Below, piece after piece: positions 25,202 to 31,308 of a DNA stretch of 64,000 nucleotides. Below the pieces are notes generated by a model. That model did not search any database. It had not been told where the DNA came from and saw only the letters and a list, made by a program, of their open reading frames with translations. The stretch's first letter is position 1, and the number at the start of each line of letters is the position of its first letter. The stretch covers positions 62,001 to 126,000 of the forward strand of contig DATMES010000035.1 in assembly GCA_035556555.1 (NCBI GenBank), given 5' to 3'. The DNA is from Frankiaceae bacterium (GTDB lineage Bacteria; Actinomycetota; Actinomycetes; BP-191). A program made the position numbers and the translations under genes.

Positions 25202-26014
25202 CTAGGCAGGCGTCGCGCGCCGGGCCTTGTTCCCCCCGGCCGCCTTGGCCTGGTAGAGCGCCGCGTCGGCCAGTGCCATGAGCGCCGTCGGCTCGGCCTC
25301 CTCGCCGGCCAGCGCGGCCACCCCCGCGGAGAACGACACCCGCCGCGCGCCGCCCCCCCGCGACGGATGGGTGAAGTGCGAGCGCAGCCGGTCGACGACG
25401 TCGTACGCCACCTCGGCCTCGAGGTCGACGAACACGACGCCGAACTCGTCGCCGCCCCACCGTCCCGCCACGTCCCCCGCGCGCAGGCCCCGGCGCAGCG
25501 TGTCGGCCACCGTGACCAGCGCGGCGTCGCCCGCGGCGTGGCCGAGGGTGTCGTTGAGGACCTTGAAGCGGTCGAGGTCGAGCAGGACGAGCGCGACGGT
25601 AGCGCCGGTACGCCGCGCCCGCGCCGTCTCCCGGTCGAGCGCCTCGGCCAGCCCGCGGCGGTTGAGCAGGCCGGTGAGCGGGTCCGTACGGGCCAGGGCT
25701 GCCAGCTCGTCGCGCAGCACCGACTCGCTGTCGGCGGCGAGCTGCCAGACGAGGACGTCCCAGAGCCGGTCGCAGACCCGGTAGTCGTGACCTGCGGAGA
25801 CCAGCTCCTTGACGACCTCGAACCGGCAGCCGGAGAGGTCCGCGAGCCGGTCGAGGGTGCGTACGGCGGTCAGCGACGCCGGCAGCCCGGGGAGCGCCTC
25901 GCCGTCGCGCAGCGCGGTGGCCGCGCCGAGCAGCCAGCCCTTCGCGGCGTCGCGCAGGGTGGCGGCCGACCCCGTGAGGTCGATCACCCGCGCGTCCCGC
26001 TTTCGGGCATTCAC
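25202..26014 (-). CDS. GGDEF domain diguanylate cyclase
   Basis: 270 aa, GTG start after GGGGGG. Residues ~1-110 are a helical region of unknown sensory type; residues ~111-265 are the GGDEF domain. DPLTGLLNRRGL and LDLDRFKVLNDTLGH are intact, the active site reads RWGGDEFGVVF, and an inhibitory RxxD site (RAGD) precedes it at normal spacing. It should make c-di-GMP from two GTP and be feedback-inhibited. No EAL domain and no membrane segment, so a soluble enzyme. Confidence 0.9.
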   Translation of the reverse strand: MNARKRDARVIDLTGSAATLRDAAKGWLLGAATALRDGEALPGLPASLTAVRTLDRLADLSGCRFEVVKELVSAGHDYRVCDRLWDVLVWQLAADSESVLRDELAALARTDPLTGLLNRRGLAEALDRETARARRTGATVALVLLDLDRFKVLNDTLGHAAGDAALVTVADTLRRGLRAGDVAGRWGGDEFGVVFVDLEAEVAYDVVDRLRSHFTHPSRGGGARRVSFSAGVAALAGEEAEPTALMALADAALYQAKAAGGNKARRATPA

Positions 26015-26082
26015 GAACCAAGCATCCCCCCGTACGCCGCCCGGCGCGCGTTGCGACACGGGCCGTGGGTACCGTGGGCGCC

Positions 26083-27042
26083 GTGACGTTCTTCCCGGGC
26101 ATCCGGCTGCACGTCGTGACCGGGAAGGGGGGCACCGGGAAGACGACGGTCGCCGCGGCGCTCGCCGTGGCGCTGTCCCGGGGTGGCAGGCGCGTGCTCG
26201 TCGCCGAGGTGGAGGGCAGGCAGGGGCTGGCGCCGCTGTTCGGGAAGGGGCCGCTGCCGCACGGGGAGACCCACGTCACGACCACCGAGGGCGGGGGGTC
26301 GGTGTCGGTGCTGCCGGTGGACCCCGAGCGCGCGCTGATCGAGTACCTCGACCTCTTCTACCACCTGGGCCGGGCGGGCAAGGTGCTGCAGAAGATGGGC
26401 GCCGTCGACTTCGTGACGACGATCGCGCCCGGGCTGCGGGACGTGCTGCTGATCGGCAAGGTGAAGGAGGCCGTCGTACGCCGCGCCGGCTCCGGCCGCT
26501 ACTACGACGCCGTCGTCCTCGACGCGCCGCCGACCGGGCGGATCGTGCGGTTCCTCGGGGCGACCGACGAGGTCGCGCAGATCGCCAAGGTGGGGCCGAT
26601 CCGTTCGCAGAGCGAGCAGGTCATGGCGATGCTGCGCGGCGACGAGACGGCGATCCACCTCGCGACGCTGCTCGAGGAGATGCCGGTGCAGGAGACCATC
26701 GACGGCGTCGACCACCTGGTCGCGGCGGGCCTGCCGGTGGGCGCGATCGTCGTCAACAGGGTGCGTTCGGAGCACCTCGCCGGGCCCGACCTGAAGAAGG
26801 CCGCGGCGGGGCGTCTCGACGTGGAGGCCATCGGCGCGGTGCTGGGCGAGGCGGGTCTGGCCGAGCCCGGGCTGGCGAAGGTGCTCGCCGAGGAGGCGTC
26901 GGAGCACGCGCGGCGGGTGGCGTTGCAGCAGGAGATGCGCGCCGACCTCCTGGCGCTCGGCCTGCCGCTCGTGGAGCTGCCGCTGCTCACGGAGACCGTG
27001 GACCTCGGGTCGGTCACGCGGCTCGCGGAGGCGTTCGCATGA
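26083..27042 (+). CDS. Get3/ArsA-like ATPase, first of pair
   Basis: 319 aa. The deviant Walker A is VTGKGGTGKTT with the signature Lys intact. Switch regions appear as AEVEGRQGLAPLF and VVLDAPPTGRIVRF. The gene is coupled to the second ATPase (ATGA overlap). Gene order ATPase, ATPase, WhiB, PBP matches Mycobacterium Rv3679-Rv3680-whiB4-ponA2 and Streptomyces SCO3577-3580. The mycobacterial pair forms a Get3-like complex linked to envelope/glycerol metabolism. Three in-frame GTG codons (26065, 26074, 26083) could start it; the last is chosen without strong support. Confidence 0.88.
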   Translation: MTFFPGIRLHVVTGKGGTGKTTVAAALAVALSRGGRRVLVAEVEGRQGLAPLFGKGPLPHGETHVTTTEGGGSVSVLPVDPERALIEYLDLFYHLGRAGKVLQKMGAVDFVTTIAPGLRDVLLIGKVKEAVVRRAGSGRYYDAVVLDAPPTGRIVRFLGATDEVAQIAKVGPIRSQSEQVMAMLRGDETAIHLATLLEEMPVQETIDGVDHLVAAGLPVGAIVVNRVRSEHLAGPDLKKAAAGRLDVEAIGAVLGEAGLAEPGLAKVLAEEASEHARRVALQQEMRADLLALGLPLVELPLLTETVDLGSVTRLAEAFA

Positions 27043-28160
27043 CGTTCGACCTCGACGCGATGCTGGCGACGAAGAAGATCGTCGTCTGCTGCGGATCCGG
27101 CGGTGTGGGGAAGACGACAACCGCTGCGGCCCTGGCACTGCGGGCCGCCGAGCGCGGCCGCCGCGTCGTCGTCGTCACCATCGACCCGGCCAAGCGGCTC
27201 GCCCAGTCGCTCGGCCTCACCGAGCTCGACAACACCCCCCGGCCGGTCACCGGCGCGGTCTCGGGGAGCGGCGAGCTGCACGCGATGATGCTGGACATGA
27301 AGAGGACGTTCGACGACATCGTCCTCACCCACGCCGACGCCGAGCGGGCACAGCAGATCCTCGCCAACCCGTTCTACGTGATGCTCTCCGCCAACCTCGC
27401 CGGCACGCAGGAGTACATGGCGATGGAGAAGCTCGGGCAGCTCCACGCCACCGGCGAGTGGGACCTCATCGTCGTGGACACGCCGCCGACCCGTTCCGCG
27501 CTCGACTTCCTCGACGCGCCGGACCGGATGACGCGGTTCCTGGAGGGGCGGTTCCTCCGGCTCGTGCTGGCGCCGGCGAAGGCGGGCGGGCGGTTCGGCG
27601 TACGGGTGATGAACGTCGGCCTCAACACCTTCACCGGCGTCATCACCAAGATCACCGGGGCGGAGCTGCTGCGGGACCTGCGGGACTTCTTCGCGGCGTT
27701 CGAGACGATGTTCGGCGGGTTCCGCGACCGCGCGCAGCAGACGTACTCGCTGCTGCAGGCCCGGGACACGGCGTTCGTCGTGGTGGCGTCGCCCGACCCC
27801 GCGGCGCTGCGCGAGGCGGCGTACTTCGTCGAACGCCTCTCCGCCGAGCGGATGCCGCTGGCCTGCGTCGTCGTCAACCGCGTGCATCGCGTGGCGACGA
27901 CGGCTGTCACGCCGGAACGCGCGGTGGCGACGGCGGAGGTGCTGGCCGAACGCCGCGTGCGCGGGCCGGCTGCGGGGCTGCTGCGGCTCCACGCCGACCG
28001 GCTCGCGGTGGCGGCGGCGGAGCGGCGGACGATCCGCGCGTTCGCGGCGGGGCGGGCCGACGTGCCGATGCTGGAGGTGCCGGCGATGGCGGCCGACGTG
28101 CACGACGTAGACGACCTGCGGCGGATCGGCTTGGCGCTGGCGGGCGACCCCGCGGCGTAA
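27039..28160 (+). CDS. Get3/ArsA-like ATPase, second of pair
   Basis: 373 aa. The Walker A reads CCGSGGVGKTT: the signature Lys of the first partner is Ser here, as is usual for the second member of this pair. Other motifs: TIDPAKRLAQSLGL (switch I) and VVDTPPTRSALDFLDAP (switch II). A helical domain at ~95-215 could bind a partner or hydrophobic client. No arsenite Cys triad, so arsenic pumping is unlikely. Expected to act as a heterodimer with the preceding ATPase. Confidence 0.9.
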   Translation: MTFDLDAMLATKKIVVCCGSGGVGKTTTAAALALRAAERGRRVVVVTIDPAKRLAQSLGLTELDNTPRPVTGAVSGSGELHAMMLDMKRTFDDIVLTHADAERAQQILANPFYVMLSANLAGTQEYMAMEKLGQLHATGEWDLIVVDTPPTRSALDFLDAPDRMTRFLEGRFLRLVLAPAKAGGRFGVRVMNVGLNTFTGVITKITGAELLRDLRDFFAAFETMFGGFRDRAQQTYSLLQARDTAFVVVASPDPAALREAAYFVERLSAERMPLACVVVNRVHRVATTAVTPERAVATAEVLAERRVRGPAAGLLRLHADRLAVAAAERRTIRAFAAGRADVPMLEVPAMAADVHDVDDLRRIGLALAGDPAA

Positions 28161-28185
28161 GGTGCCGGCGTTCCGGGCCGGGGCT

Positions 28186-28237
28186 CGTTCTCTGCGGTTC
28201 ACGCGCCGGTCTCACGCGTGATGATCTTCAAAGAACG
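28186..28237. repeat. 52-bp element, copy 1 (forward)
   Basis: CGTTCT at the left end and AGAACG at the right, with inner arms TCACGCG and CGCGTGA and the shared core GCCGGTCTC plus TGATCTTCA. The same 52-base sequence recurs inverted at 31348-31399 and 39053-39104. Located between the converging ATPase and WblA genes. Confidence 0.8.
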
Positions 28238-28278
28238 GGTGCGGCCGGCCCCGCGGCCTAGGGGCCCCGGAAACGACG

Positions 28279-28363
28279 GAACGGCCCCACCGCGCCCCTA
28301 CAACACGGTGAAGCCGTTCACGTCGGGACCGGTGCCGCCGCCCCTACAACAGCGGCGCCGGTC
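28279..28363 (-). terminator. Two tandem hairpins with an identical 13-nt loop
   Basis: Hairpin 1 has 14-base arms (28279-28292 and 28306-28319). Hairpin 2 has 12-base arms (28327-28338 and 28352-28363). The stems are unrelated, but both loops read CGCCCCTACAACA on the plus strand (TGTTGTAGGGGCG in the WblA transcript). On the minus strand hairpin 1 is fully paired using two G-U pairs and hairpin 2 has one mismatch. Likely the transcript end of the WblA gene. Confidence 0.6.
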
Positions 28364-28376
28364 TCGATGCCGACCG

Positions 28377-28658
28377 CTAGGCGGTCGAGTAGCTCTTCTC
28401 GAAGTCCTGACGAGCGGTGAGCAGCAGAACGTTCCAGGACTTCACGTCGGGACGGCGGCGGAGCAGCGCGCGGCGCTCACGCTCGGTCATCCCGCCCCAG
28501 ACCCCGAACTCGACGCGGTTGTCGAGGGCGTCGGCCAGGCACTCGGTGCGCACGGGGCACCCGAGGCACACCTGCTTCGCGCGGTTCTGGGCCGCTCCCT
28601 GGACGAACAGCTCGTCCGGGTCGGTCGTACGGCAGCTCGCGCGGGTGGTCCAGTCCAT
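28377..28658 (-). CDS. wblA: WhiB family regulator, WblA/WhiB4-like
   Basis: 93 aa. Cluster Cys: SCRTTDP (Cys9) and CLGCPVRTEC (C-x2-C-x5-C). These are followed by GVWGGMTERERRALLRRRP, the DNA-contact region. The longer C-terminal tail (SWNVLLLTARQDFEKSYS) and the position between the Get3-like pair and a class A PBP identify it as the WblA (Streptomyces)/WhiB4 (Mycobacterium) orthologue, a redox-sensing regulator of development and oxidative-stress genes. Diverges from the PBP gene. Confidence 0.85.
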   Translation of the reverse strand: MDWTTRASCRTTDPDELFVQGAAQNRAKQVCLGCPVRTECLADALDNRVEFGVWGGMTERERRALLRRRPDVKSWNVLLLTARQDFEKSYSTA

Positions 28659-28893
28659 GTCGTGGATCCTTCGAGTGCTAGCCGAGGCAGGTGTTTTTGG
28701 TGCGGTTTCGACCGTACGGAGCCAGTCCCGGCAGGCACATCCCCTTACCGGACCCTTTCAGGTAGTCCGAACGGGTGGTAAGTCGCAGGGGACTTTGGCC
28801 ATTCCCGCCCGCCGCCCCGTGTGGGTCCGTTACGCTTGAGGATCATCCGCCGGTGCGCGCCCGCGCCCGAGACGCGGTCCCCTCTCCTGATCG

Positions 28894-31308
28894 GTGACGT
28901 TGTTGGCACGTACGGACTCGGGCAGCGCGCTGCACCGGAGCGCCCTCGTGCTGGCCGTCAGCGTGCTCGCGGGGCTGCTGCTGGCGGCGGGGGCGTTTCC
29001 GCTGGTGGGCGGCTTCGGCATGCTCGCCAGGGCGGGCGCGGAGTCGTTCGACAAGCTGCCGGACGAGCTCGAGGAGGAGCCGCTCCCGCAGCGCTCGAAG
29101 ATCCTCGCCGCGGACGGGTCCGTGCTGGCAGAGATCTTCCTCAACGAGAACCGCGTCGTCGTGCCGATCAGCGAGATCCCCGACGACGTCGTCTACAGCA
29201 TCCTGGCCGTCGAGGACTCCCGCTTCTACGAGCACCGCGGCATCGACGTGCGCGGCCTCGCCCGCGCGCTGTGGCGCAACCGGCAGGCCGGCGAGGTCAC
29301 CCAGGGCGGGTCGACGATCACCCAGCAGTACGTCAAGAACGTCCTCGTCGAGAACGCCGACGACAAGGCCGATGCCGCCAAGGCGATCGAGCGGTCGACG
29401 CAGCGGAAGATCCGCGAGGCGCGGTACGCCATCGCGCTGGAACGCCGCTACACCAAGCGCGAGATCCTCGAGAAGTACCTGAACATCGCGTACTTCGGCG
29501 ACGGCGTGTACGGCGTCGGCACCGCCGCGCAGCACTACTTCCGCAAGCCCGTCCAGAAGCTCACGCTCGGCGAGTCGGCGCTGCTGGCCGGCATGGTCAA
29601 GAACCCCCGCTTCTACAACCCCGTCGACAACCCGCGGAACGCCAAGGCGCGCCGCGACCTCGTGCTGACGCGCGCCGCCGAGGTCGGCTTCATCGACCCC
29701 GCGCGCGTCGCCGCCGCGGTGAAGAAGCCGTTGCCGAAGATCAACCCGCAGAAGCTGGCAGACCTGCAGAACAACAAGATCGCGCCGGCGTTCCTCACGT
29801 ACATGCGCGAGTACTTCCTCAGCGACCCGAAGTTCGGGGCGACGGAGGGGGAGCGCAAGGCGCGGCTGTTCCAGGGCGGCCTCGAGGTCCACACGACGCT
29901 CGACCCGAAGCTGCAGGCCGTCGCGACCGCGACGCTGAACAAGACCCTCCCGCTGCCGAACGACCCCGCCGCCGCTGCCGTCGTCGTCACGCCCGGCACA
30001 GGCGAGGTCAAGGCGATGGCCGTCGTCAACCACGACGCCAAGACCAAGCAGGTCAACCTCGCCACCGGCGGCTCGTCGGGCTTCCAGGCGGGGTCGACGT
30101 TCAAGATGTTCACGCTCGCGGCCGCCGTCGAGCAGGGCCTCCCGCTCAAGCTGCGGCTGAACTCTCCCGCCCGCTACCGGCCCGACCCGGCGAAGTGCGA
30201 CACCCCCGACGACGGCGTGTTCCAGAACGCCGGCGACAGCGAGGCCGGCAACTTCGACCTGCCGACCGCCACGTGGATGTCGGTCAACACGTACTACGTG
30301 CAGCTCCAGGACCGCGTCGGCATCCCGAGCGTCGCCGCGATGGCGCGCCGGATGGGCGTGACGCTCAACAGGGAGCCCGGCTCGCGGGAGTGCGCGTTCA
30401 CGCTCGGCAGCTTCGAGGTCGACCCGCTGGAGATGGCGGCGGCGTACGCGACGCTGGCCGCGGAGGGCATGTACTGCAAGCCGATGCCGATCACGTCGGT
30501 GAAGGCGCCGGACGAGGACGTGCAGACGTTCGAGCCCGAGTGCAGCCGCGTGCTCACCGCCGACGACGCCAACACCGTCACGTCGGTCCTGCGCGGCGTC
30601 ATCGACGGCACTCACCCGCACCGTACGGGCCGTGCCGCGTCCCTCGGCCGTCCCGCCGCCGGCAAGACCGGCACGACGACGGGGCCGAGCGCGGCGTGGT
30701 TCGACGGCTACACGCCCGACTTCGCGGCGGCCGTCTGGATGGGCCACCCGACCGCTCCCGCGTTCAACCCGCTGCGCAACGTGCACGGCGTCGGCACGGT
30801 GTACGGGGGCGGGTTCCCCGCGCAGATGTGGCGGGAGATCATGCTCGCCGCCCACGACGGCCTGCCCGTACGAGACTTCCCCGACCCGCCCGCGACGGCG
30901 TTGTTCGGCAAGCAGGTGGCCGTGCCGGACCTCCGCGGGATGACGCCGGAGGAGGCGGAGGAGGCGCTCCGCGGGCTCGGGCTGACGCTGGTCGTCAACC
31001 GCGGCTCCGTCAACGCCGCCCCGATCCCGGCGGGTGCCATCGGGTCGCAGCGGCCGTCCCCCGGGACGAACGTCGCCAAGGGCTCCGTCGTCACCGTCTA
31101 CCTGTCGAACGGCCGCTACCCGCCGGTCCAGCCGTCCCCGACGCCCACGAAGACGGCGCCGCTCACGCCGTTGCCGAGCTCGTCCACGCCTCCGCCGCCT
31201 CCGCCGAGCTGCAACGGCAACCCCAAGAAGTGCCAGACGCCCTCGCCGACCCCGACTCCCACGCCGTCGCCGAGCGGCGGTACGGGCGGCGAACAGGGCG
31301 GCGGCTAG
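28894..31308 (+). CDS. Class A penicillin-binding protein with PASTA domain (PonA2-like)
   Basis: 804 aa from a GTG. One membrane helix (~15-40). Transglycosylase motifs: VEDSRFYEHRGID and GGSTITQQYVKN. Transpeptidase motifs: GSTFKMF (SxxK), SVNTYY (SxN) and GKTGTT (KTG). A single PASTA domain (VAVPDLRGMTPEEAEEALRG) sits at ~670-735, then a Pro-Ser-Thr tail. It polymerises and cross-links peptidoglycan outside the membrane. Synteny with WblA and the Get3-like pair points to PonA2. Confidence 0.93.
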   Translation: MTLLARTDSGSALHRSALVLAVSVLAGLLLAAGAFPLVGGFGMLARAGAESFDKLPDELEEEPLPQRSKILAADGSVLAEIFLNENRVVVPISEIPDDVVYSILAVEDSRFYEHRGIDVRGLARALWRNRQAGEVTQGGSTITQQYVKNVLVENADDKADAAKAIERSTQRKIREARYAIALERRYTKREILEKYLNIAYFGDGVYGVGTAAQHYFRKPVQKLTLGESALLAGMVKNPRFYNPVDNPRNAKARRDLVLTRAAEVGFIDPARVAAAVKKPLPKINPQKLADLQNNKIAPAFLTYMREYFLSDPKFGATEGERKARLFQGGLEVHTTLDPKLQAVATATLNKTLPLPNDPAAAAVVVTPGTGEVKAMAVVNHDAKTKQVNLATGGSSGFQAGSTFKMFTLAAAVEQGLPLKLRLNSPARYRPDPAKCDTPDDGVFQNAGDSEAGNFDLPTATWMSVNTYYVQLQDRVGIPSVAAMARRMGVTLNREPGSRECAFTLGSFEVDPLEMAAAYATLAAEGMYCKPMPITSVKAPDEDVQTFEPECSRVLTADDANTVTSVLRGVIDGTHPHRTGRAASLGRPAAGKTGTTTGPSAAWFDGYTPDFAAAVWMGHPTAPAFNPLRNVHGVGTVYGGGFPAQMWREIMLAAHDGLPVRDFPDPPATALFGKQVAVPDLRGMTPEEAEEALRGLGLTLVVNRGSVNAAPIPAGAIGSQRPSPGTNVAKGSVVTVYLSNGRYPPVQPSPTPTKTAPLTPLPSSSTPPPPPPSCNGNPKKCQTPSPTPTPTPSPSGGTGGEQGGG

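Follow-up and report, generated by a model that had tools for sequence, protein, structure and literature searches.

A clade-limited hairpin family with a nine-nucleotide loop recurring on changing stems, found largely at gene 3′ ends

Within the 64,000-nucleotide stretch of a Frankiaceae bacterium genome analyzed here (the window), two hairpins stand in tandem behind a WhiB-family gene, and the question they raise is why one loop should recur on stems of unrelated sequence. The first-pass annotation had reported this arrangement with an identical 13-nt loop, and the arrangement is real: the exact 13-mer CGCCCCTACAACA occurs twice on the plus strand, each copy is flanked by complementary arms, the arms of H1 and those of H2 are unrelated in sequence, and both hairpins fold better than shuffled sequences on either strand (z of -5.7 for H1 and -4.0 for H2 on the minus strand, and of -4.9 and -6.1, respectively, on the plus strand). 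The minus-strand fold adds two U.G pairs inside the loop, leaving GUAGG at its tip. Past the 16-bp inner stem of H1, 4 T are found within 8 nt.

The WhiB-family gene, which we take to resemble wblA and to which Pfam assigns Whib only, is oriented such that its transcript would read through into H2 and then H1, and a convergent ArsA-type ATPase gene faces the hairpins from the other side. An Rfam scan of positions 26000-31000 returned no family matching the locus and three sub-threshold matches to animal RNAs alone. In addition, a 13-nt exact repeat, TTCACGTCGGGAC, is shared by the H1/H2 junction and the 3′ coding end of whiB; this repeat might stem from template switching as the hairpins arose.

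Table 1. Locations of the hairpins, their neighboring genes and related features. Positions given without a contig are those of the window; G000 is the home genome, and G001 and G002 are the other two genomes of the genus.
Feature	Location	Strand	Detail
Hairpin H2, proximal to whiB	28327..28363	-	Main stem and loop; begins 13 nt past the whiB stop codon
Match of model R2 to H2	28329-28360	-	41.4 bits; H2 is among the 14 sequences from which R2 was built
Hairpin H1, distal	28274..28325	-	Long stem interrupted by one bulge; separated from H2 by 1 nt
Match of model R2 to H1	28283-28314	-	39.9 bits; H1 is among the 14 sequences from which R2 was built
Invariant loop TTGTAGGGG of H2	28341..28349	-	
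Invariant loop TTGTAGGGG of H1	28295..28303	-	
Exact 13-mer CGCCCCTACAACA	28293-28305 and 28339-28351	+	
Exact repeat TTCACGTCGGGAC	28317-28329 and 28441-28453		
WhiB-family gene	28377..28658	-	Pfam Whib, 5.2e-26
ArsA-type ATPase gene	27072..28160	+	Putative start codon
Loops after whiB	Centers 32 nt (H2) and 78 nt (H1) after stop		
Loop after 141-aa ORF before msrB (L197)	Center 31 nt after stop		No Pfam match
Loop after DUF5667 gene	Center 40 nt after stop		
Loop after MS_channel protein gene	Center 107 nt after stop		
Loop after 131-aa gene	Center 36 nt after stop		No Pfam match
Loops after bldC	Centers 34 and 77 nt after stop		
Loop after Transgly_assoc gene	Center 31 nt after stop in G002, 30 nt in G001 counterpart		
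Loop after membrane protein gene	Center 25 nt after stop		No Pfam match
Hairpins L199 and L205	G000 C46:48998 and 50956		
9-mer copy L101, CCCCTACAA	G000 C33:22026-22034		
9-mer copy L100, CCCCTACAA	G001 C107:16582-16590		
Second hairpin family	G000 C1 (69817, 142270, 190373, 291749), C46 (50242, 64824), C20 (111717)		
Third hairpin family	G000 C1 (107713, 110063), C2 (109244, 125453, 125778), C24 (25064, 103808), C46 (36754, 63380, 77070, 180732)		

A hairpin family defined by its loop

A genome search for the loop inside hairpins, a check proposed with the first-pass annotation, was strongly positive. The 13-mer CGCCCCTACAACA has three copies in the 3.98-Mb home genome, all of which are hairpin loops, the third lying in a different hairpin on another contig. 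The 11-mer core, GCCCCTACAAC, is found in eight exact copies, each of them within a hairpin; the weakest of these hairpins are L041 (8-bp stem) and L040 (bulged stem). At 39 places the sequence differs from this core by one mismatch; 22 of these loci were readable, and pairing reaches at most 10 of 14 positions in 21 of them and 12 of 14, around a longer loop, in L046. The 9-mer CCCCTACAA, read as TTGTAGGGG on the opposite strand, has 22 copies across the genus (10, 4 and 8 in its three genomes); 17 of these are hairpin loops, and the stems that adjoin them span from 7 positions to 12 or more. The other five (L100, L101, L103, L112 and L109) lie outside family hairpins, L109 forming a small hairpin in another register, in which CCCC pairs with GGGG. 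A fixed rule defined presence in a hairpin for the counts from the home-genome sample, and folds were read for the 22 copies. The two window loops do share the 13-mer, whereas the invariant part of the loop is the 9-mer.

The home-genome sample consists of 80 stretches of G000 (1,581,330 bases, 39.7 per cent of the genome) drawn from contigs named by earlier searches, and it therefore overstates the genome-wide density of the family, leaving comparisons between words unaffected. Within it, TTGTAGGGG sits flush in a 9-nt loop in 7 of 8 copies, as compared to 5 of 1861 occurrences for the 503 other words that match it in composition; the stem of the remaining copy, L213, is bulged. Single-base variants of TTGTAGGGG occur in such hairpins in 0 of 125 cases, and together with the seven flush copies this means that every one of the nine positions of the word is fixed within the sample. 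In a census covering 717 hairpins, no 9-mers are more enriched than CCCCTACAA and its one-base shifts. Across the genus, fixation of the loop falls just short of complete, as hairpins with the variant loop CTGTAGGGG exist in G001 (L204) and in G002 (L214).

The stems show no such constancy. Among the 17 hairpins, the mean identity of the 5′ arms is 0.37, as compared to 0.36 for shuffled arms (0.39 in the largest of 300 shuffles), and in three pairs the 5′ arms match at 9 or more positions out of 12. Tandem family pairs are limited to H1/H2 in G000, 1 nt apart, and L203/L209 in G002, and 13 of the 17 exact hairpins stand without another copy of the same loop beside them. The hairpin family is real, sharply defined and limited to one clade.

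Individual sites are gained and lost fast between species. Among the three genus genomes, the loop follows whiB in the home genome only, and the G002 whiB 3′ end has a different strong hairpin; the first-pass annotation had named a loop not kept in close relatives as evidence against its reading, and this holds for the whiB locus, as CCCCTACAAC is present in 0 of the 29 readable whiB loci from 59 relatives searched, both same-genus genomes included. At the 3′ end of the Transgly_assoc gene, which is presumably GlsB-like (Pfam shows only Transgly_assoc), the family loop is found in G001 and G002, and the G000 hairpin there bears a different loop. Past the 131-aa gene, the loop reads CTGTAGGGG in G001 and TTGTAGGGG in G002 and is a different one in G000. 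The 3′ end of the gene that we take to be bldC (Pfam shows only HTH_17/MerR) has two family hairpins in G002, other-loop hairpins in G000 and, as the second hairpin in G001, a TGTAGGG loop on nearly the same stem as in G002. Between G001 and G002, these orthologous sites keep the loop or its core, and the surrounding letters differ. The leader of a short MerR/HTH_17 (bldC-like) gene carries the complete loop in two of the genomes, G000 and G002, and in G001 it has GTAGGGG on a weak stem. This leader is kept in blocks across the three species (L320, L321 and L322), with the loop word or the GTAGGGG core about 30 nt ahead of the start codon.

Model searches place the same limit on the family. 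Model R1, made from three hairpins, gave E <= 1 in 23 of 98 genomes; G001 had no match, and matches below E 0.03 were confined to G000 and G002. Fourteen of the 17 sites went into building model R2, whose scores for those sites follow by construction, and the counts that carry the argument rest on the plain 9-mer. The R2 survey scored 18 candidates per genome in 393 genomes of the class, recovered all eight exact G000 hairpins and missed only L219 (E 1.9) among the 17. Matches with E <= 0.1 were found in 11 genomes: the three genus members, with 8, 6 and 3 matches and as the sole representatives of the order, and eight others with one weak match each (best E 0.002), such that nothing comparable was found in the 390 other class genomes. 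In 80 named whiB loci (945,391 bases), R2 gave one match (E 0.55), and the exact 9-mer occurs twice, neither time with a continuous stem. Open-access literature searches with the loop word gave, among the matches listed, no work on bacterial hairpins as judged by title, and as far as these searches show we did not find the family described.

Two other dispersed hairpin families were seen in the 1.58-Mb sample of the home genome. The second family is intergenic, with a constant core, GAYAGC-AGC-GCTRTC (once with TGC in the middle), a variable outer stem and seven copies located 70-90 nt from the nearest predicted gene boundary. The third comprises 11 copies of palindromes built around CGTTCGTG and CACGAACG; their loops span 10-14 nt and often resemble CTGCCCGGGC, and the copies mostly lie 40-53 nt past a predicted stop codon.

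Gene ends, probable transcribed strand and termination features

The placement at gene 3′ ends that the first-pass annotation had described for the window holds for 11 of the 17 family hairpins, in which the loop center lies 25-107 nt past a same-strand stop codon, the gene calls being ORF scoring made for this analysis. None of the 17 lies within 110 nt past the stop of an opposite-strand gene alone, and two of the 3′ sites (DUF5667 and the G001 Transgly_assoc counterpart) are also within 40 nt of the stop of a convergent gene. Of the remaining six, two belong to the bldC-like leader, three have an unclear context, and one falls within the leader or the initial codons of an ECF sigma ORF. Other intergenic hairpins of the sample often lie at similar distances and have very varied loops. 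The pair formed by the ECF sigma factor and DUF5667 genes has a family hairpin at each end (L199 and L205).

Base pairing in the stems carries a strand signal. With TTGTAGGGG taken as the sense strand, the 17 stems contain, within 12 positions of the loop, 169 Watson-Crick pairs, 15 G.U pairs, 3 A.C pairs and 3 other mismatches. The excess of G.U over A.C (sign test p 0.0075) favors an RNA transcribed from the TTGTAGGGG strand, and omitting the U.G that four hairpins share as their second pair leaves 11 versus 3 (p 0.057). The functional strand at the window locus is probably the minus strand, and the proposal that a constant loop on changing stems reflects selection at the RNA level gains from this asymmetry.

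A terminator module had also been suggested for the window. A stable hairpin does follow the whiB stop codon closely, H2 first and then H1, as at the other gene-end sites. Canonical U-tract terminators were absent from positions 28000-28900 (0, as compared to a shuffle mean of 0.5, with loops of 3-8 nt and 5 T in 8 required), though H1 has its short T-rich tail. At least 3 T in the 8 nt past the stem are found in only 3 of the 17 hairpins (H1, also designated L211, L196 and L203), and H2 is not among them. In both tandem pairs, the distal member (H1 or L203) has 4 T in 8, the proximal member (H2 or L209) has 1 and 0 T, respectively, and each proximal member carries a sense A.C; the distal hairpin is thus the more terminator-like for the upstream gene in both pairs. 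Similar to the hairpins described here, intrinsic terminators of GC-rich actinobacteria, including a class lacking U, are characterized in the available text of one report as strong GC-rich hairpins near the stop codon, usually with little U-tract (PMC8269248), and Term-seq of S. clavuligerus gave 353 structured ends lacking U versus 182 that are U-rich (PMC8269248, same text). Clusters of two hairpins are described in part of another report as common at gene ends (PMC8355165), so the tandem layout is in itself ordinary. Unlike the family loop, a 9-nt word that recurs unchanged, terminator loops are short, with a median of 4 nt in each species (PMC12207403), and the available portions of these sources describe no constant loop sequence.

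Readings of the loop

The reading that we prefer, with a probability of roughly 0.55 as judged from sequence, is that these are lineage-specific RNA hairpins at transcript ends, in which the loop, UUGUAGGGG as RNA, would be a strict recognition site for a putative trans-acting factor. The hairpins would be transcribed from the TTGTAGGGG strand, and most would form just past a stop codon at the mRNA 3′ end; judged from position, termination or protection of the end by the hairpin is likely. The UUGUAGGGG loop would be read in trans by a sequence-specific RNA-binding protein or by a small RNA pairing with it, and the factor would act on the transcript ends of a few genes, regulators among them (whiB, bldC-like and the ECF sigma/DUF5667 locus). 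Function through recognition of the loop is likely on the sequence pattern: a factor that reads an RNA loop best explains a word that is fixed in the sample and found almost only in loops, on free stems, with a sense-strand bias and at gene ends. The earlier suggestion of a loop-recognizing factor or a pairing RNA is a fair inference from the loop pattern, and no partner turned up.

The hairpins could instead be plain structural terminators, UUGUAGGGG being merely a favorable terminator loop with two U.G pairs and a GUAGG tip and having no specific partner. This reading, which we consider unlikely, draws on the distances of 25-107 nt past stop codons, on the other-loop hairpins at the same place in orthologous G000 genes, on the U.G extension, which folding backs, and on the T-rich tails of the distal tandem members. 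Stability alone should, however, allow some single-base variants in hairpins, and there are 0 of 125; the other 3′ hairpins of the genome vary widely in loop, two copies lie in a 5′ leader, and a T-rich tail is present in only 3 of 17.

Compared with a loop-reading factor acting on RNA, an element working at the DNA level has a small probability. The 9-mer, exposed in a cruciform or single-stranded hairpin, would be the site of a DNA enzyme (HUH-type nicking or transposition, or recombination), and gene ends would be where such sites are tolerated. HUH replication origins have an invariant nonanucleotide in a hairpin loop, to which the family loop may be likened, and an identical loop on changing stems, fast turnover between species and the 6 of 17 hairpins away from gene ends would all fit. 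The G.U bias is nevertheless one-stranded (15 versus 3), hairpins with a stop close by share the orientation of the upstream gene, and 0 of 10 scanned neighboring proteins match a mobile-element family.

A slightly smaller chance attaches to a base-pairing system, in which the loops would be seeds that pair with CCCCUACAA in the 5′ regions of other mRNAs or in a small RNA. The 9-mer copy L101 lies directly ahead of a Shine-Dalgarno-like GGAG and ATG, and L100 lies upstream of a putative start; both are copies of CCCCTACAA, the complement of the loop, and are candidate pairing partners. The proteins encoded downstream of both look secreted by eye. Against pairing, only 5 of the 22 9-mer copies lie outside family hairpins, the genes after L100 and L101 differ by eye, an exact 9-mer search found no complementary RNA common to the three genomes, and the loop of 6C RNA, UAUCCCCCC, is complementary only at GGGG. 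Chance, or shared ancestry of H1 and H2 through local duplication, is very improbable despite the tandem layout and some short repeats in the region, as the stems are unrelated and the genome-wide counts, with more copies on other contigs and in other species, refute it.

Known RNA classes and the meaning of the family

Similar to this locus, the target RNAs of ANTAR proteins are actinobacterial tandem hairpin pairs with conserved loop residues and variable stems, some of them beside terminators (PMC8164766, PMC3369931). As defined in the available parts of those reports, their loops are hexanucleotides with A1 and G4, a definition that does not describe UUGUAGGGG, which has 9 nt, or GUAGG with both U.G pairs formed. 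ANTAR RNAs are also defined by two stem-loops with a linker of 2-25 nt; H1 and H2 are two hairpins 1 nt apart. The present family differs in having a 9-nt loop fixed at all positions in the home sample, in the 13 of 17 hairpins that stand without a second loop copy and in the 11 of 17 that follow genes.

The 6C RNA (RF01066), which these genomes also contain, resembles the window pair: it has two hairpins in tandem whose loops, on one strand, are C-rich, nearly identical and about 9 nt long. It differs in the loop, UAUCCCCCC, and in stems that are conserved among the three genomes; RF01066 had no match at positions 26000-31000 up to E 5, and the copy in this genome lies elsewhere (G000 contig C33). 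REP-type palindromes are likewise short, dispersed, mostly intergenic and lineage-specific hairpins. REP elements are repeats with conserved stems, and the 5′ arms of the present family are scarcely more alike than shuffled arms (0.37 versus 0.36).

Hairpins that are defined by the loop and free in the stem usually imply a dedicated reader, as in the case of the ANTAR proteins. Actinobacteria are not generally known to encode Hfq or ProQ, so a lineage whose tagged transcript ends form a strict and countable set would offer a clean route to a candidate RNA-binding regulator, and the family, with 17 exact hairpins in three genomes, is small enough to be tested completely. More tentatively, the hairpins may mark a post-transcriptional regulon in a poorly known actinobacterial order, in which the putative factor would read UUGUAGGGG only in a hairpin loop and set the fate of the mRNA ends of whiB, bldC-like, sigma-factor and stress-type genes under shared regulation, with sites gained and lost by the tagging of ordinary terminators.
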